This document shows positions 22,794-57,397 of a stretch of 64,000 nucleotides of DNA, in pieces (position 1 is the first letter of the stretch; every line of letters begins with the position of its first letter). Made by a program: the position numbers and the translations under genes. The stretch covers positions 806,001 to 870,000 of the forward strand of contig OX621163.1 in NCBI GenBank assembly GCA_951640195.1. Direction: 5' to 3'. The notes beneath the pieces were generated by a model. The model was not told the origin of the DNA and did not search any database. It saw only the letters and a program-made list of their open reading frames with translations. This DNA comes from Porpolomopsis calyptriformis. Lineage: Eukaryota; Basidiomycota; Agaricomycetes; Agaricales; Hygrophoraceae.

Positions 22794-25473
22794 ATGGCCA
22801 AAAATTCGTTAGCCCCTACCGTTAACGTAACTGTTTACGGTACATTCAACTTGGTTGGACACGATCAAAACAATTACGACCTGCCCTCCGCACTCTCAGG
22901 TCAGTGATTCTTCATTCCGATGTGGTGCAGATACGATCTGGTTTGGCGGATGACCATTCTTTTGTGCTGGAAGATGTCTCTTCTCGCTGATCACCAATCT
23001 ACCATCTGCTTCGTATGTAGAAACATCAATATCCATTCTAACCTTTCTTGTGCTTTCTAGGTCGAGGAAACACCAGCCACCAGCCACGATTACCGCAGCG
23101 AATTATAGATGCTCCCATCCATCGTCTCTCGATACATTTCGCTGGAAGAAGGAAAGAATTCGAGTTTTTAAAGGAAGCGTTGACCCAACGCCCAGGAAAT
23201 CTACCAAGTCGATGCGTTATATACGGCATGCCAGGCATAGGGAAGACGCAGTTAATTCTGCAGTACGTCAAAGCATCGTTCGACAATGACTGGTATTCGC
23301 ACATATTCTGGACATCGGCTACGACTGTCGATAAGCTAATCCAAGGATTCGCAAATATTCTTGATCTCGTCGATGATCGCGGTCGCTACGTTCAGGAACA
23401 GAGCGCAAAACTAACTTCGGTTAGGCTTTGGTTAGAAGGGTCGCACAGAGATGGCGATATCAACTGGCTCCTTATCGTTGATAATGTTCATCGGGACGTC
23501 CTGGATTTTCTTAGCTCGCATCTGCCTCGCGGAAAGATCCATGGGAGCATTCTTTTCACTACACGGACGACTGGTGTTGCCGAGGCTTTAGCAAATGCAG
23601 CAGGAGTGCGATATCCAATCATCAGACTTCAGACGCTAGACGTGAAAGAGGCGATAAACCTTCTTATCGAAGATGCAGGTATCGATTCGGCTACCGCAAC
23701 GCCATCCGAATTAGGCGAAGCTGAAGAATTAGTGAAATGCGTCGGTCGTTTGCCCCTTGCTGTTGTTCACGCGGCTTCATTCATCAAAGAAACGGGCACG
23801 ACTCTTTGCAAGATGCTCGAGTTATATAACAGCGAACACAAATCAGAAGTGAGTCTATCATTCTGCCTCTTATGTTGAGTGTAAGCGTTCACATTGACTA
23901 AAAGGTCATTCGATGGGAGAATGATTTAAATTCCTATGAGGAGCAATCCGTAGCCTCTACGTTTACCAACCAATTCAACCAATTAAACGAAGAATCTCGG
24001 GATATCAGCAATCTGCTGAAAGTTCTCTCGTTCCTTGACCCTGAAAGTATACCTGTCAAGATGATTGTTCAAGGGGCCCGACGGCTGTCGGACCAAGGGC
24101 TACTTTCCAACCCGTCATCGCTTCATGCTTCACTCCCCGAATCGCCTTGTGCCTCGACGTCCTCTTTGCCATCATCGTTGTCATTACCAAAACGTACCCT
24201 ATTACAAAAGCTGAAGGGATGGAGCAAGAGTCCTCAACGCATGGGTCACAGTGTAGGAGCTCGGGCGGATGACACCACGCCAGCGTCTCAGATATCTTCA
24301 GAATGCCAGTCTCTTATTTCCCTCATCCTGTCACCAATCGAATTTCCGAAAGCGATACAAAAGCTCAACAACTTATCTCTCGTTGAACATCGACCGAATA
24401 TCGGAAACTCTTCATTGTGGATACACGATTTGATCCAATTCATGATGCGAGAGTCTACAAGAACGGAAGAAAGTTACCAAGAATGGCTCCAGCTATCTGT
24501 GTCGCTTGTCTGTGGTGCGTTCCGAGATATCAAAGACCATGGATCACCACGGTTGTGGCCTGAATGCGAGAAGTTCATGCTGCACATAAGATCTTTGGAC
24601 GAAGCATGGGATGACGCATATGGCATGAACAATGAGCTGGCTGAGGCCAAGACCACGATGACACTATATCTATGGCGCCGTGGACGATATGTTAAGGCTG
24701 AGGAGCTGTGCAAGCAGGCGGTTGAAGTGAGGAAGAAGAATCTAGGAGCCGATCACATTGACACCCTCATTTCGATGCACAATCTCGCGCTAGTATATAG
24801 ATCCCAAGGACGATACCACGAGGCAGAGATACTTTATAAGCAAGTGTTGGCAAGCCAGGAGAAGGTTATCGGGGCCAATCACCCAGACACACTCACCTCG
24901 ATGCACAATCTTGCGTCGGTATATATGTCCCAAGGACAGTATAACAAGGCAGAGACGCTTCACAAGCAAGAGTTATCTGGCTCGGAGAAACTTCTAGGGG
25001 CCAATCACCCTGACACGCTTGCCTCGATGCACAATCTTGCATCGGTGTATAGGTCCCAAGGACGGTACAAGGAGTCAGAGACGCTTCATAAGCAGGTGTT
25101 AGCAAGCCGGGAGAAGGTTCTAGGGGCCAATCACCCAGACACGCTCACCTCAATGAATAATCTCGCATCGGTGTATTGGTCGCAAGAGCGGTACGATGAA
25201 GCTGAAGTGCTATACAAGCAGGTGTTGGCAAGCCGCGAGAAGGTTATGGGGGCCAATCACCCACACACGCTCACATCGATGAACAACCTTGGATCCGTGT
25301 ATTGGTTGCAAAAACGGTACGATGAGGCCGCTGCAATTTATAAATCGGCCTTATCTGGTTTCGAGAAGTCTCTCGGGAGCAGCCACCCATGTGCACAGAG
25401 GACCGCTGATTCTCTCCGTGAGTTACAACGACAAGCTAGTGAAGCGAACCAAGACGAAGAATCCCTCGCATGA
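22794..25473 (+). CDS. NLR-like STAND NTPase: NB-ARC plus kinesin-light-chain-type TPR repeats
   Basis: 820 residues in three exons (22794-22899, 23061-23848, 23905-25473). Residues 1-35 are a short N terminus with VNVTVYGTFNLVGHDQNN. The nucleotide-binding domain begins near FAGRRKEFEFL (residue 63). It has Walker A GMPGIGKTQL (about 91-100), Walker B NWLLIVDN, a TTR sensor (LFTTRTTG) and the GLPL-like GRLPLAVVHAASF. A winged-helix or MHD-like part contains WIHDLIQFMMR. From about residue 545 there are six 42-residue TPR units ending GRY/ERY/KRY. This is the standard layout of fungal NLR-like receptors, which act in non-self recognition and regulated cell death; ligand and output are unknown here. 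An effector domain is absent apart from the short N terminus. Confidence 0.88.
24691..25440 (+). repeat. Six tandem 126-bp TPR-coding repeats
   Basis: Units start at about 24691, 24817, 24943, 25069, 25195 and 25321. The middle units are close to identical at the DNA level (shared KQVLAS-x-EK and GANHPDTLTSM-x-NLASVY coding). The first and last are more diverged. High internal identity suggests recent duplication or conversion between units. Confidence 0.85.
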
Positions 25474-47093: not shown

Positions 47094-50000
47094 ATGAACG
47101 TTCCCGGAGCCTTTCCGGAAGATCCTGAGCGACCCCCGGGCGACTTTCCACCTTACATCGATTTGGATTACTTTGATGCGGACGAAGACCTGGTCAAGAG
47201 AGCTGCGTTGAAGGAGGAGTATGTGTCGCCAGAGTGGAAAGCTTGGAGGGAGGGCAAATCTGAGGGCCCACGCCCAAGCCCACCAGTCGAGTAAGTACTT
47301 ACATCCTTGAAATTGTTTCAACTCTCGGGGTGGCCTTTAACATTCAGATGCATACAGTATTATCGCCGTGCAGGGCCTGGCATCTACATACAAGCAAACA
47401 TGGACGAAGAAATTAGAGGATGGAACGCGGGTCATGTGGCTCAGAGACCTCCTGAAGGAAGACTTACCGCTTGCGAGGATACTAACGTTCGAATACAATA
47501 CGACTTGGCTCGAAAATCCGGCAAACGTCTCCTTGAAGCAGTGTGCGCATGAATTGCTTCAGGCCATAATTTGGGATCGGTCACATCGAGGAGAGAACAG
47601 GATGTGTAAGACAATGGTGGGATATCACAGGTACTTATTCCGACAACCGCCCTAAAATTTGCAATTAGAGCAGGAGGCCTATAATATTCATCGGACATAG
47701 TTATGGAGGATTGGTTATCAAGCAGGTACGCTACGATATTGGGAGCCATCTGCGGATATTCACAATCCATTTCATTTTAGGCAATGGTGACTGCTGTAAC
47801 CTGCGATCCCGATCGCGTCTGGTATGATGACTTCCAGTCGATCATAACATCGGTCTCCGGAATCGTATACCTCGGGACTCCACATGGTGGCTCGATGCTC
47901 GCTGCTCGAATTGGGATACTCCAAACTCGGGTCTGGAATCTCTTTGGACGTCAAGCGAATCCCAAGCTTCTGAAACCTCTAGAGGTCGGTCCAAAAACCG
48001 GAGAGCTTCATGAGTTACATCAGTCATTTTTGGACATACGGACAAAGGACAGAATGACGGGGCTTAAAGTGTTTCATTTTTTTGAGACTCTGCCATGCAA
48101 GATTGGTGTACGTATTCTAACCAGCCGTGATATCTGTTACTTCGCTGACAAAAAAATTTAGAACTGGTCGATTGCTGTAAGCCTAATCCAGTTGCGCAAG
48201 CATAATTCCTCCGTGCTAATGAAGCGATTTTTAGGAGGTCGTTGATGAGTATTCTGCTTGCCTTGGTGCCTGGCTGGAAGAATGCCAGCCTCTGGAGTCG
48301 GATCATAAGAATCTGAATAAATATGCGAGCCGAGAGGAAAGCAACTATCAAAAGGTTATGCGTTGCTTATCATTTATACACGACACCTCGGCACTCGTGG
48401 TAGGCCAGCGATGGGGAAGTGAGTACCCCCCCACACACACCCTCAAGTCCATGAATTTCTTGTTAACGTTCCAACAGGGTACCATTACGCTGGGAAATTT
48501 TCTGGCGAAAAACTGGAACAGTTACGGAAATGGCTTAACCCATTTGAAGATGCTTTTGTCCGCGAAGAAATGCTTCAAAGCCAGAGATTCAGCGGCACCT
48601 GCGAGTGGTCCACTAGATTAGATGCAGTATCACGATGGCTTGATCCAGATATTGCGAAGCCTATCGCTGACGCAATTCAGGACGGTCGGTGCTTGTGGGT
48701 CCAAGGCAAGCCGGGGAGCGGAAAGTCAGTTCTATCGGCATTCTTGAGTGATCAGATAAACGCCCTCGTCGCGGAGCATAATAGACAGGCCATAGGGGAT
48801 GTTCGGTGTTCTGGAGAGGGGGATAGCGAACCGTGCGTCCCCGCATCAAGAGCTGACCTTCGGACTGCCCTCTATTTCCCTTTTTATAATGGCGCGAAGT
48901 TTGTGCAAGCCATTGTCACCATGATACATCAACTTCTACGGCAGCATCCCGAAAATAAGGCTTTACACAAAGTTACCGATGAGTTCCAAAGCAGATCGTT
49001 GACACCGGAGACCGCAATGAATCTACTCCTGGCTCTCGTGACAATACTAAAGCTTACATAGTGAGTAACAACTGCACCCAATGGTGAGGACCGCTTCTCA
49101 CTTTTGGTGTTCCAGTATTATCATCGATGGGCTCGATGAATGTGCTTCCTCGGAAGTTGGCCTAAACCAATACAGCGAGACGGAGGCCATGATGAAGCAT
49201 CTGGGTCGCCTTTGCGGAATACAGAACGTCCGCCTCCTCTTACTGAGTCGGAAAGAACCGGTCATTGAAAGATTCATGACGGAGTCACTCTGTTCTAGTG
49301 GTTCAATCCTCGACATGGCCTCTTACAATGGCTCAGATATCAACCTCTTCATTGATGTCCACATCTCCAGTTTCGCCGAAGCAATGGCTCTACCTGACGA
49401 CCTTCAAGAGCGCATTCGAACCAGCATTGTAAACCAGTCGCGAGGAATGTTCCAATGGGTCAAGCTTGTCATCCAACAATTAAAATTCAAGGTCAAAGAT
49501 GGGAATGAAGAGAAGATCATGGAGGTGCTGGAACAATTCCCGCGGGAGCTCAACAAGGCTTATCAGACAACTCTTGACCGACTTTCGCTTACTCCCGCGT
49601 ATAACAAAAAGCAAGCTATGGTGGCGCTGAAGTGGCTTGCATGCGCTAGACGGCCACTGACTCTTCACGAACTGAGTCTTGCCATCCGACTTCACGAGAA
49701 GCTAGAAGGTCCAGCCAAGCCGGAAACTGAGATTATTGAGAGTATACTGGTCAAGGTCACATGCGAGGATGAAGAGGTATTGGAAAGCGAATTGTCCCTG
49801 CTTCTGGGTGGGCTTGTGGAGTTCCAGCGACGCAGTAACATTGTCAACGTGGTAGATTCATGGGACAGCTATCGCGGCCAACGAAAAACCATCAATATCT
49901 GCCATCATTCCCTCACGCAATTCCTGGTGAGCGAGGAGCCAGGGGAATTTCGCTTTCCCAGTCAAAGTGCTCACAGCCTCATTGCGGGGACATGCATGAA

Positions 50001-52350
50001 TATGATGTGTGCTCGCAACGCTATTGGGACGTTCTTAGCGCACTACTATGTGAAAGACTGCAGTGACGAAATCCCCTTACTCCTAGACTACGCGGTTGAG
50101 AACTGGAGCCACCACCTCCGCACATCCGGTATCTGCTATGAAGATGAGCTCTTCAAAAATGACCTCACGGACTTGACCACTCACATTATCGACCAGAGCC
50201 TCCATCTCTCGCTCGTCATCATGGGTGCAATCCCGGCAGCCTGCAAACGCTTAAACGCAGCTCGGGTGGACCAAATGATGCAAGCCATCGCCATCCGCGA
50301 CTGCCAGGCCTCCATCCTCCCCACCGTCAACGCCGTAATAAAACTCCGCCCCTACCTCCCGAGAATCGCACGCGGCTTACGAGACATCAACAAGAAACTA
50401 AAATCCAAAGGCCGCTTAACAGCTGGATCCCACCGCAACGCAAGACTGCGAAGAATCGATAACGCCACGGAAGACAACGTTAAATCCTCCCTCAGCAATG
50501 ACCTCGACTCCCCCTTCGCCATTGAAGTCCTTGCCCTCATAGACTCAGACCCAAATCTCTTCCCCCAAACCCTAAAATCCCACCTCGACCACCTCCTCCA
50601 AACCTCACGTCAACTCCGCGCACTAACCATAAAATTATCTGTTGATCCTATCCGCACCTGGCTAGACCATCAAATCGGAGGTGGTGATGAAAATAACCAA
50701 AGAAGAGCACTAAGCCCCATCCCTGCGCTCGCACTCACTACACACACCCTCGACGTCCTCCTTGCTGCTGCGCTATTACCAACAACAAACCATGACCGGA
50801 GTGATTTCCGTGAACAATTCTTTGCAGACATGAAACATCCGATGTATGGTTTCATTGTTTCCACGCGGTACTGCCTTGATGGACGCTTCAAAGACGTCCT
50901 CACTCCAACTGACTACAAACACCACATCCTCGGGCACTACCTCCTCCGCATACCCGAATGGTGGGCCGCAAACCTCACAACCATCGTCCTTGAATTCAAA
51001 CCTCAAGACACGCACTCCGTGAACCTGTGGATACGTGACTGGCATACCTCTAGCCTGATGATCCATTACGGGGATGAGACCAACACCCAGGCGAGTTATT
51101 CATTCACGAGGACAGCATCAAAGGTGGTGAGTTTGAAGAAACATGTTATGGCGACGGCAGATGTGTTTTGGTTTTGCATCTGCATACCCATCGTGTTGAT
51201 GGCGAAGATCTTGATGATTATGTTTCCAATGATTGAGGAGGTTTTGATACGGATTTGGTGGCAGTTGCGGCACAAGACTGTGACAATGAAGCCGTGGTTT
51301 GTTGCGCTTATAGATGGGTGGAGATATTCTTCTCTCGCGTTGCCTCTCTTCCTCTTCCGCCTGAAGACCTTCCCCTGGCTCTTGGCTTCCTACCGCAATA
51401 CCCCCCTCCAAGACCTCCGCGGGATCTACAATGACCCATATGGCTACAAAACCAATTTCCAGCATGCTGGCTGGAAAATCATCACTCTCCTCGTCCTGCA
51501 AGAAATCTTTGTCGCGGGTATGATTCTCTACGACTTCTACAAGATCGCTGAGGCGCAAGAAAAAGCAATCCGGAATAGGTATCCAAAGCTTGCGCGACGG
51601 GTGACGGGGGTGAATCTGGAGGATGTGGGGAGTAACTTGTTGGAGCATGCGGAGGAGATTCTGATGGCTTTTGCAAGGATGATTTTCATCGAACGGACAA
51701 TCTGCGAGGTTTCCTATATCATTTTCGACATCCTCCAAATATCCGTTCAAATGCTGACACCCTCCTCCTGGTCCTGGTCACTCTTTATCCAGGCCTCATC
51801 CGGTGTCTTTGGACATGTGATTGGGCATATAACAGTCCACATGTTTGGGCTGCGAGGGATTGTAATCGTCCTTTTTATCTTGTGGTTCGGGGGTAAAGTC
51901 TGGAGGTGGTTGCGTTTGGGTTCGGCTGTGAGGTTCATCATCTGGGCTACGATTTTTACTCCGGCGCAGTGGATTTGGCCACTGATGAAGGTTCCATTTT
52001 TGACAACTTATGCGGGGTTCAAGTCCCTCACATCTAATGTTGTGGCGCCTGCCGTGGGGTTTATTGCATCGACTGCAGCAAAGGTTGCAAAGACTTTAGG
52101 ACCTGGAGGGATGGTCCTTTTGGTTGCTCTGCTTTTGGTGCTTTTCTTCACAGCATTCATGGTTATCATGATGGATCCCCTTCGGCTCAGACACGCAGCC
52201 TTCTCTTGTGCAAAAGCGGGAAAAGTCGCTGCTCGCGCCACAGGGGTGCGAGATCCCCTGAAACATCTGAATTGGAAAGCTGGTGACCTCAAATCCATCG
52301 AATATTATCCTTTAGCGGATCTTGATCAATTGGACAGACTTGGTGCGTAA
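47094..52350 (+). CDS. NLR-like protein: alpha/beta hydrolase, NACHT NTPase and multi-pass membrane C terminus
   Basis: 1,621 residues in eight exons: 47094-47290, 47358-47630, 47674-47725, 47781-48107, 48162-48176 (15 nt), 48235-48418, 48478-49060 and 49116-52350. Residues about 66-340 are a serine-hydrolase domain of the DUF676/PGAP1-like type: VDIIAVQGLAS, IIFIGHSYGGLVI (nucleophile Ser about 166) and SGIVYLGTPHGGS. A conserved VVDEYSA and a later DHKNLNKYAS supply candidate Asp/His. A NACHT domain follows: Walker A VQGKPGSGKS (about 424-433) and Walker B IIIDGLDEC (about 545-553), then RLLLLSRKEP and a winged-helix-like LKWLACARRPLTLHELSLAI. From about residue 1225 there are roughly six to seven hydrophobic segments (FWFCICIPIVLMAKILMIMF; MVLLVALLLVLFFTAFMVIM at about 1542-1561) where repeats usually sit. 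The role may be non-self sensing; this is inferred from the family. Confidence 0.82.
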
Positions 52351-52392
52351 CGTCTCCACCTCTAAAACCTAACTCTACTGACACCCCTCAAG

Positions 52393-52984
52393 GGAGTCCC
52401 CTGGGCATTGAGGGAATTGATGTCGGAGGGGCAGATGGGGAAGGTGTGGAAAGACTCTAGGTGAGGTATAGAGAAGACCGGCTTTGAAATAGCCAGTGTC
52501 GGTGTAGGTAATGGACAAGGAAACAACCTCCGACCCCGACGAGTCCCCACAAATGACACCCCATCCCTCACATCTCCATCCCCAAACGAGCTCTCCTCCC
52601 CCAACACCAATAACCACCATCAACTACCACTCAACAAACTGCGTTGGCTGCTCAGGGGGCGCCCAATGAGGAGTGTTGCGGCAGCGGTCGCGCAGCCCAC
52701 GCAGAGTTCTCGTCCCCCTCCTCCATCCGCAGAACCAGACACAGACCTCTCCCTTAATGAACTCTTCCATCAAATTTTCGGTAGTTCAACCTCACCTACT
52801 TTCTCTCCTTACAATCTTTCGCTTTCTCACCCCCCACCCCGCTTACCCCTTCATCCCACCCATCCCCATGGACTCCAGTATCACTTCTGCATTTGCTGCG
52901 CAGGCAATGGCAGATGGGAGGATGGCCATGGCGTCGGCAGCGAGTACCACAGCGATTCATGGACAAACACAAATTCTAGGGTCA
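52393..52984 (+). other. Open region downstream of the hydrolase-NACHT stop, possible extra exons
   Basis: The TAA at 52348-52350 overlaps a possible donor (G|GTGCGT). Splicing to CCTCAAG near 52392 would extend the protein with SPLGIEGIDVGGADGE. A further 54-nt intron then gives a long Pro/Asn-rich open stretch to about 52780 and an alanine-rich ending near 52984 (AAQAMADGRMAMASAAS). A stand-alone small gene is also possible. I cannot decide from sequence alone. Confidence 0.35.
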
Positions 52985-53097: not shown

Positions 53098-54212
53098 CTA
53101 CATTTTTCGAGTAGCCTTCAACGCAAACACAAGCTCTCTGAGAAGAAAGAAACAGGCAATTCCAGGAACAAAAAGAGTGCTGAACAATATCAAAAGCAAA
53201 CACGCCACAGAAAACCCGCGAGATAGGGAAATGAATGCTGGCCAGGTGCTGTTGCCACCACGCACCTGTTCAACAGTCAACACGACTTGCATGGCACTCA
53301 ATGCCACCGAGACAGCAGCAAAGACATAGACAAATGGGGTGATAACCCTGGCAAGAAAAGGTCCATATTGTCCCATAACTTTGTGGTAGTGAGCCTCTAG
53401 CAGGTAGAACTTGGTGTACAAGTTCAGGCGGCTCAAACGAAGTTCTCCATACCGGTATCGAAGGGTGACAGCATCGTCACCGATGTCTCCAAAAAATCGG
53501 AGGAAGTATAGAAGTTCACTGAAGTCTGTGGTGGAACTGATTAACTTCTTCTCCAGTGCGATATCGAAGTCAGACTGGTGTTGAATGAGATAGAAGTATG
53601 ATCGCATGTAGCCCAAGGCTGCTCTCCGTAGCGCAGAGTCATTTCCCGAGAGAAATAACCTCCAAAATGCGTGGTTGGTGAGGCAAGGTGGGAGGGGTTT
53701 GATATAGACTTTGTCGTAATACCAAAGAAGGTGCAACCCAGGATTTTCCGTGATCGTTATCTCTCTCCCTCGGACTAGTTGGTGGTGAAGAGCGGATATG
53801 TGCGAACTTTGTGGCTTTCCGAGGAGCCAGAAGACAGGATAGAGCTTGTTGAGTCTGTCATGAAGGAGCTCGCGCCGCAGAAAGTCGAGGATGGCTTGGT
53901 GGTCATCTACGTCGAGGAGCGGCTGCCCTGGTATGCCTCTGATGCCGAACTTGTTGGTGGCTGTATGTATCTGAAATGGTCAGAGAGCAAACGACGAGAG
54001 CTACCAGAAGCACTTACTGAAGGGAGTTCTGATATTACGGTGCCCGACAGTTCTTTGTTCAACTCGGCTTTTGCGTCGAAGGGAGGCTTTATTACGATTT
54101 CAAGTGGTGTATCACTTGAAGTATGAGCTTGCAATTCAGCTGAGGTCCGCGGTAACGAATGTGTTTCCTTCTCGTGTTGAGTGGTAGTTGGTGATTGAAG
54201 GTGGCCGTCCAT
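53098..54212 (-). CDS. DUF6601-like multi-pass membrane protein
   Basis: About 340 residues in two or three exons. Exon 1 (from 54212) starts MDGHLQSPTTTQHEKETHSL and has a disordered segment to SELPS. The next exon begins IHTATNKFGIRGIPG. The conserved part reads LYPVFWLLGKPQSSHISALH, RGREITITENPGLHLLWYYD, KVYIKPLPPCLTNHAFW, YRYGELRLSRLNLYTKFYLL and then two or three membrane spans (FVYVFAAVSVALSAMQVVL; FSVACLLLILFSTLFV). The RYGELRLSRLN signature and the order of the LH-x-x-(W)-x-K-x-x-PLP motif match the fungal DUF6601 family as I remember it. Function is unknown. Its start lies 33 bp downstream of the CSN12-like gene's stop, in the same direction. Confidence 0.7.
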
Positions 54213-56163: not shown

Positions 56164-57036
56164 TCACCGCTGCGCCATTGCCTGCCAGAAGCCCGTGACA
56201 CCCCTTTCAAGATCCTCGACTGTCTTTACCTTTGCCCACATTGGGTATCTTGCCAGTCGACTCATCTTAGACAGTGTATAGTGGTCTGTCGGGACGAGGA
56301 AAGCGCCTCGCACGAGCAACCAGTCCACAGAATCAAGGCTGACATGCACAATTGGCATCCCAAGCGGCACATCGCCGTCCCACGCCTTCAGCCCTTGTTG
56401 CGTCCAGTCAGTGGTTCGTGAAACCAACACCCTGATTATTGGATCCGGCCATCGGAGCAGATCGTGCGCACACATCTTGTACATCACCTTCGCAAACGCA
56501 GCCTTTTCCTCCTCCTGAGCGAGTCCACTCCCCTCCACTTTGTCGCGTAGAAATTCCAAGAGCACCTGGCGCGACCACCCCGCCTCCTCCAGGCGGGAGA
56601 AGAGTGCCGTCATCAGCGAGAACCGATAGTTCTTGATTGTGACGGACCCCACACAGGGAATGCAGTAAAATTCCTGATTCCGCTCTGCAGGCCAGAAATC
56701 AATGGTTTCGGGTAGATTGTGGTACTGCAGGTGGATGTGTGCGGCAGCAACGGATGTGACGAGATCGGGATAGAGGGCTTGGAAAAGGTCGAAGTAGCGC
56801 TGGACGGCGGGCATGTCTTTCTCACGCATGGACCAGTTGGAGGAGCGGTAGAAGATCGTGTAGGGGAGGGTGAGGAGGAGAAAGACAAGGTAAAGCGGGG
56901 CATAGAGGGCGATAGCAACGATGACGACCAGAATGGTGTAGGGGATCGTGAGCAGGGGCCAGCGTAGAGGCATTGCGAGTGATGGTACTGTACCGTCTTC
57001 CCTTGCTTGCCGAGTTCCCTCACCTTCTGATATCAC
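56164..57036 (-). CDS. Hypothetical two-span membrane protein
   Basis: 290 residues in one exon; an internal ATG at 56973 (MPLRWPLLTIPYTI) is an alternative start. A hydrophobic hairpin near the N terminus (ILVVIVAIALYAPLYLVFLL) is followed by a soluble region with WSMREKDMPAVQRYFDLFQA, WPDPIIRVLVS, WDGDVPLGMPIVHVSL and ending GVTGFWQAMAQR. I do not recognise a family. It is GC-rich and lies between the PCI gene and a divergent thioredoxin-fold gene. Confidence 0.6.
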   Translation of the reverse strand: MISEGEGTRQAREDGTVPSLAMPLRWPLLTIPYTILVVIVAIALYAPLYLVFLLLTLPYTIFYRSSNWSMREKDMPAVQRYFDLFQALYPDLVTSVAAAHIHLQYHNLPETIDFWPAERNQEFYCIPCVGSVTIKNYRFSLMTALFSRLEEAGWSRQVLLEFLRDKVEGSGLAQEEEKAAFAKVMYKMCAHDLLRWPDPIIRVLVSRTTDWTQQGLKAWDGDVPLGMPIVHVSLDSVDWLLVRGAFLVPTDHYTLSKMSRLARYPMWAKVKTVEDLERGVTGFWQAMAQR

Positions 57037-57397
57037 ATCACCGGCTTCTCCCGTTTTTTCACCAGGCCACGATAAAATCCCTGAAGCTCGAATAAATCTG
57101 CGACAGCGCTTGGAATAGGTTTCTTTGCGGTTGTACTTGTATCATTCCTTCTTCCTCCGTGAGGCGCGTTGGGTACGGGTTTCCGGTTGTTTTTCTCCAT
57201 TGATCCAATACCTCAGAAGGTCTTTTATGGAAATGTGTGGTTTGAGGGGTTGCGTTGGGGTCATGACGGTTTTCGTGGTGGTTGTGGGGGCTACAATTTG
57301 CGCGTTAGTCGGGTAGGCGCACCTGTAGTAGACGATGTAGAGTTCTACCGTGGGAGAGTACCAGTATGGGAATGACGTGACCTATCCTCACTCACCG
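57037..57397. other. Divergent intergenic region, no gene seen
   Basis: 361 bp between the minus-strand membrane protein and the plus-strand thioredoxin-fold gene. It should contain both promoters. Confidence 0.4.

Follow-up and report, generated by a model that had tools for sequence, protein, structure and literature searches.

Gene structure and domain order

The window analysed here is a 64,000-nucleotide stretch of the Porpolomopsis calyptriformis genome (contig OX621163.1, positions 806,001 to 870,000), in which a single fungal gene at 47094-52350 encodes a hydrolase-like region, a NACHT domain and a long hydrophobic tail. Positions are those of the window, and features lie on the forward (+) strand unless stated otherwise. 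The gene starts with an ATG at 47094 and ends with an in-frame stop at 52350, as had been read from the sequence alone (the sequence-only reading). Our initial model, at 1621 amino acids (aa), equalled that reading in length. In the final model intron 2 is shifted from 47631-47673 to 47617-47668 because the relative P0006, described below, reads CKTMSRRP there, and the gene comprises eight exons (47094-47290, 47358-47616, 47669-47725, 47781-48107, 48162-48176, 48235-48418, 48478-49060 and 49116-52350) that encode 1618 aa. The final exon stays open in a single frame from 49117 onwards, for 1077 codons and the stop, and spans everything from the Walker B motif through the tail. Because Walker B and the whole tail lie within this one exon, no intron has to be removed for NACHT and tail to be fused.

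The predicted protein consists, in order, of a sesB-like α/β-hydrolase, NACHT (NPHP3_N), a winged-helix-like region, a middle of about 350 residues and a multi-pass tail of about 400 residues. The NACHT domain (aa 386-586; 48594-49251) matches PF24883 at 67.3 bits (cut-off 24.8), and its match to the NACHT model PF05729 is below cut-off (20.1 bits against 26.7). The Walker A (GKPGSGKS, 48705-48728) and Walker B (IIIDGLDE, 49117-49140) motifs are intact. Both of these and the GxSxG motif had been named in the sequence-only reading, and they stand in the translation at aa 423 (GKPGSGK), aa 542 (IIIDGLDE) and aa 161 (GHSYG), respectively. Downstream of NACHT, a winged-helix-like stretch (aa 704-736; 49603-49701) weakly resembles GPIID_WHD (18.1 bits, cut-off 27, E 0.0037). 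A search of Protein Data Bank (PDB) sequences with aa 1-627 returned HmuV alone, at E 0.059 and on the P-loop stretch. NCBIfam gave no match for the window protein (P0001) and two weak matches in the P-loop region for P0006; PADLOC models matched P0001 at the end of NACHT (E 0.016) and P0006 in the hydrolase (E 0.00023), with none in the tail.

The hydrolase region (aa 63-330; 47280-48369, limits approximate) was delimited from Pfam matches below cut-off and from a motif order common to the window protein and its paralogue L017 (HG..W, HSxGG, GTPHxG, F.ET, DH, read by eye). In L017, weak Abhydrolase_6 and DUF676 matches lie adjacent to NB-ARC. The motif GHSYG (aa 161-165; 47693-47707) reads as a nucleophile elbow with Ser163, and downstream of it lies His309 in SDHK (48304-48306), which we take to be the catalytic His of the hydrolase; both are retained in P0006. 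The stretch VQGLAS (aa 70-75; 47368-47385), present also in P0006 and replaced by VHGFGG in L017, is presumably the oxyanion motif. We use the label 'sesB-like' on the strength of these motifs and of the literature rather than of a profile match above cut-off. According to a published survey, sesB-like domains are regarded as lipases and are linked to SERAC1, whose lipase domain is related to them (PMC4986451).

Relatives of the whole protein

P0006 (hypothetical protein M1839_006230, 1775 aa) comes from a metagenome-assembled genome of Geoglossum umbratile, an ascomycete that is the sole named source among the relatives found. It aligns with the window protein from end to end, with 1037 of 1626 columns identical (64%) and 38 gap positions, and this alignment supports both the introns and the single gene. 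It has the whole architecture of the window protein, with a C terminus 178 aa longer. When P0006 was searched against the window's genome in six frames, this locus was matched in six blocks at 61-80% identity.

A search with window aa 851-1618 found six proteins at 45-76% identity (7996 candidates scored), and one with P0007 gave seven rows including itself, of which P0008 alone was new. Apart from P0006, the six relatives (sources ena, lgn and jgi) are unnamed gene-caller fragments carrying the C-terminal half. All eight sequences align over this half, and in eight of eight the tail is joined to the post-NACHT region. Judged by their sequences, the tail-bearing relatives establish the gene as a member of a genuine protein family and not the product of a faulty gene prediction. 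The one-exon frame, the NPHP3_N match and the P0006 alignment thus bear out the earlier proposal that hydrolase, NACHT and multi-pass tail belong to one gene.

Stand-alone tails were searched for with a profile of five relatives over their last ~540 aa, and none reached E ≤ 1 among the 7997 candidates scored, which share 5-residue words and fall within a limited length range, so that distant ones can be missed. With two short peptide patterns, 128 stretches were picked up in prokaryote contigs (genome_contigs) and 36 in viral contigs, of which none was confirmed in either set.

The 3' end of the gene could lie further downstream than 52350. GTGCGT at 52346 is a candidate splice donor, and P0006 extends 178 aa past its last aligned residue; within this extension, the stretch DSDIDSAFEALAAAD and the residues preceding it have one weak match, with E 0.009 when 1.7 kb was searched, at 52820-52915 of the window. 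A further intron and exon or exons may therefore occupy 52346-52915. The end of P0003 also matches DNA just past the stop of the gene, in a different frame.

The middle region and the hydrophobic tail

Pfam gave nothing at E ≤ 1 past about aa 740 of the window protein, and the Pfam matches of P0006 follow the same pattern. The conserved middle (aa 861-1214; 50074-51135) accordingly has no Pfam match, and within its own genome it matched itself and two stretches of about 60 residues at its upstream, post-NACHT edge (E 0.008 and 0.013). The tail (aa 1215-1618; 51136-52347) appears membrane-like in hydropathy and conservation. Its segments were defined by Kyte-Doolittle hydropathy alone, averaged over the eight sequences, and lie at 51157-51222, 51328-51387, 51472-51531, 51700-51756, 51817-51888, 51925-51993 (which may be two) and 52111-52170 (the strongest, mean 3.1). 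Mean hydropathy peaks at aa 1234, 1290, 1336, 1412, 1451, 1496 and 1550 (1.5 to 3.1), with weaker peaks near aa 1480 and 1525. Seven main and two weaker peaks translate into six to eight segments, in agreement with the six to seven counted in the sequence-only reading. Four of the seven main peaks stay at or above 1.3 in all eight sequences, and the remaining three fall to 0.7-1.2 in one or two of them.

Identity to P0006 is 0.64-0.76 in the hydrolase, NACHT, post-NACHT region and middle. Within the tail, the two blocks of segments have identities of 0.48 and 0.40 and a loop has 0.28; identity reaches 0.80 at aa 1385-1440 (45 of 56 residues), where the best conserved block, RMIFIERTICEVSYIIFDILQISVQMLTPSSWSWSLF (51676-51786), contains the fourth segment. 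Among 1887 differing residue pairs within the seven segments, 1129 exchange one hydrophobic residue for another and 139 involve charge, whereas at aa 560-1214 the corresponding fractions are 0.21 and 0.43 of 6658 differing pairs, a contrast that is partly built in because the segments were chosen for their hydrophobicity. At the level of these substitutions, the tail is keeping its hydrophobicity while its letters drift.

As had been supposed from the sequence, the tail shows no known repeat domain at Pfam cut-off: no family reached its cut-off in the tail of the window protein or P0006, and a search of these two proteins and of P0007 and P0008 found no repeat family at E ≤ 1. A PDB sequence search with a profile of the tail gave no match at E ≤ 1. 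MHYT appeared in the tail stretch of P0008 at E 0.2 (12.1 bits, cut-off 21) and was taken as a chance match.

NACHT genes in the same genome

Of 106 candidates in the genome 92 were scored, giving at least 69 NACHT matches, and a search for a second copy of the tail found none at E ≤ 10. We fetched five NACHT relatives (L012-L016) that match P0006 as far as its residue 873-880; the post-NACHT region of P0006 aligns with them at 25-30% identity up to that point. Ankyrin repeats lie downstream in all five, where the window gene has its middle and tail, and in four of the five the NACHT and ankyrin frames probably form one gene. These five genes partly support the proposal that the usual repeats are replaced by a membrane module, which is membrane-like by hydropathy.

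We also scanned 29 of the 69 NACHT loci (the first 20 and the last nine rows, with the middle 40 left out), taking downstream sense frames of at least 150 aa within the fetched 5.5 kb, beyond which exons would go unseen. None had more than one strongly hydrophobic downstream segment, as against four in the window gene: 21 had no downstream peak of at least 1.8 and eight had one. The set includes L048, which is without an intact NACHT frame. Two loci, L028 and L029 (G000:C11), resemble each other: their NACHT frames are 1321 and 1320 aa long, and each has a single strongly hydrophobic segment far downstream of NACHT. Contigs C3 and C14 carry many closely packed NACHT matches in open frames about 540-580 aa long, pointing to an expansion of the family.

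Comparison with described fungal receptors

Fungal sesB-like/NACHT proteins of the NOD-like receptor (NLR) type have, like the window protein, an N-terminal α/β-hydrolase and a central NACHT domain (PMC4986451, PMC9815663, PMC12258605). A fungal NLR is expected to combine a central nucleotide-binding oligomerisation domain (NOD), an N-terminal effector region and C-terminal superstructure-forming repeats; the window protein has the first two and lacks the third. The C termini described are mostly ANK, WD40, TPR or HEAT repeats or are unannotated, whereas in the window protein, which is single-copy, a conserved middle is followed by a multi-pass tail. Canonical repeats were counted in 3104 NLRs (67%; PMC12258605), and in another survey Pfam accounted for 52% of the C-terminal domains (PMC4986451). 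Because many C termini were left unnamed there, genes like this one may sit among the unknowns of such surveys. In the accessible text of the open-licence literature no NACHT protein of a fungus is described as ending in a multi-pass tail, and the word 'transmembrane' is absent from the main text, so far as accessible, of PMC9815663, PMC12258605 and PMC4986451.

Possible functions

We favour, tentatively and at a little under even chances, the explanation that the gene encodes a membrane-tethered switch of the STAND class (signal transduction ATPases with numerous domains; NLR-type) by which a lipid hydrolase is kept at a membrane. The sesB-like hydrolase and NACHT would face the cytosol, and the multi-pass tail would be inserted in the membrane, where it would replace the usual repeats as anchor and probably also as input. 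The trigger might be an alteration of the membrane itself, or of a partner to which the tail or the middle binds, and would be relayed through the conserved middle; NACHT would then exchange nucleotide and cluster, and the clustered hydrolase domains would cut lipid on the same membrane. In described NLRs the C-terminal domain both restrains and triggers the switch (PMC12258605). Consistent with this explanation are the intact Walker motifs, the retention of GHSYG and His309 in P0006, the hydrophobicity of the tail across its eight relatives, the join kept in eight of eight, the single copy, the contrast with the 29 sampled NACHT loci and the published view of sesB-like domains as lipases. Given its single copy and even conservation, the protein more likely responds to a cue from self or membrane that is itself conserved than to a variable non-self one. 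A bolder version, which we regard as unlikely, is that the proteins form a conserved membrane-embedded STAND family in which a new multi-pass domain serves as sensor or channel and NACHT couples membrane state to lipid hydrolysis; such an NLR-like switch would sense the membrane directly rather than a repeat-bound ligand.

Several observations weigh against a membrane-held hydrolase switch. All hydrolase matches to Pfam are below cut-off in the window protein (PGAP1 18.0 bits against 24.3, Abhydrolase_6 18.3 against 26.3, LCAT 13.2 against 21) and likewise in P0006, and the window gene is not among the matches of a genome-wide PGAP1 search. In both proteins Gln rather than His precedes the Gly of the presumed oxyanion motif, a change that, to go by the motif, could affect catalysis. 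The full-length form is found in two proteins only, and the hydrolase is documented in just these two because the six fragments start near Walker B or after it. The tail has four Kyte-Doolittle peaks of at least 1.6, and shuffles of its own letters reach as many (mean 3.9, maximum 8), compared with a mean of 0.9 and a maximum of 5 for shuffles of whole-protein composition; the excess of peaks is therefore a matter of composition, and conservation is the better evidence. AlphaFold models built from seven and eight sequences are mostly helical, with mean predicted local distance difference test (pLDDT) scores of 34.7 and 46.4 that make them untrustworthy.

The single copy, the even conservation (the range of identity to P0006 given above for the hydrolase through the middle) and the absence of repeats would also suit a housekeeping lipid-remodelling enzyme of an inner membrane, in which NACHT would serve solely as a scaffold for ATP-dependent assembly and take no part in reception or cell death. 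We consider this the less probable course, though a serious one: the genome has its many NACHT matches, the order of effector, NOD and C-terminal module is that of fungal NLRs, and few species have so far yielded the protein, which is not the distribution of a housekeeping gene.

An immune or allorecognition NLR proper, with a tail that places the receptor where a non-self cue arises and a hydrolase that causes cell death, appears more doubtful still. By size, α/β-hydrolases rank in the top four effector families of fungal NLRs (PMC9815663), but the C termini described for these receptors are variable and under positive selection (PMC9815663, PMC4986451), whereas the window protein is without variable repeats, single-copy and evenly conserved.

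Some charged and aromatic residues within the hydrophobic block are conserved, E1400, R1401 and D1412 among them, and raise the thought that the tail itself is the effector, a NACHT-gated channel or pore with a regulatory hydrolase. This is improbable, since the effectors described for fungal NLRs are N-terminal (PMC9815663) and no channel family was matched in Pfam, PDB or NCBIfam.

BST1/PGAP1, the glycosylphosphatidylinositol (GPI) inositol-deacylase, is like the window protein in joining a hydrolase to a multi-pass region (membrane-like in the window protein by hydropathy). To our knowledge it has no NACHT domain, and we know of neither NACHT nor such a tail in SERAC1. Descent of the window gene from BST1/PGAP1 with an inserted NACHT would explain the weak PGAP1 and GPIID_WHD matches, but it is largely refuted: the membrane-domain model PF25140 (PGAP1_TMD) gives no match to the window protein at E ≤ 1, and its single match in the genome is elsewhere, in a separate BST1/PGAP1-type gene about 50 kb past the window (G000:C1:920230-923075, reverse strand) with both PGAP1 and PGAP1_TMD above cut-off. 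An artefact, whether two genes, a misassembly or a tail that is hydrophobic without being inserted, is barely credible even with an uncertain 3' end, since substitutions in the segments avoid charge, and we reject the first two of these because Walker B and the tail lie in one exon and the join is kept in separate relatives.

The activation of fungal NLRs is considered a crucial open question (PMC10197012). Through its membrane tail, a hydrolase-NACHT protein that is conserved and single-copy would settle where the effector acts, and it would offer one gene to delete, tag and assay, as against large families with variable repeats. It also shows that new, well conserved domains can go unnoticed where the C termini of fungal NACHT proteins carry no annotation.

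Neighbouring genes

The window contains a second NLR-type gene at 23042-25473 (+), with NB-ARC followed by tetratricopeptide repeats. Two neighbours lie on the opposite strand downstream of the hydrolase-NACHT gene: one at 53098-53979 (-) matches DUF6601 at 251.7 bits, and the other, at 56164-57141 (-), has no Pfam match at E ≤ 0.01 and appears partly hydrophobic.

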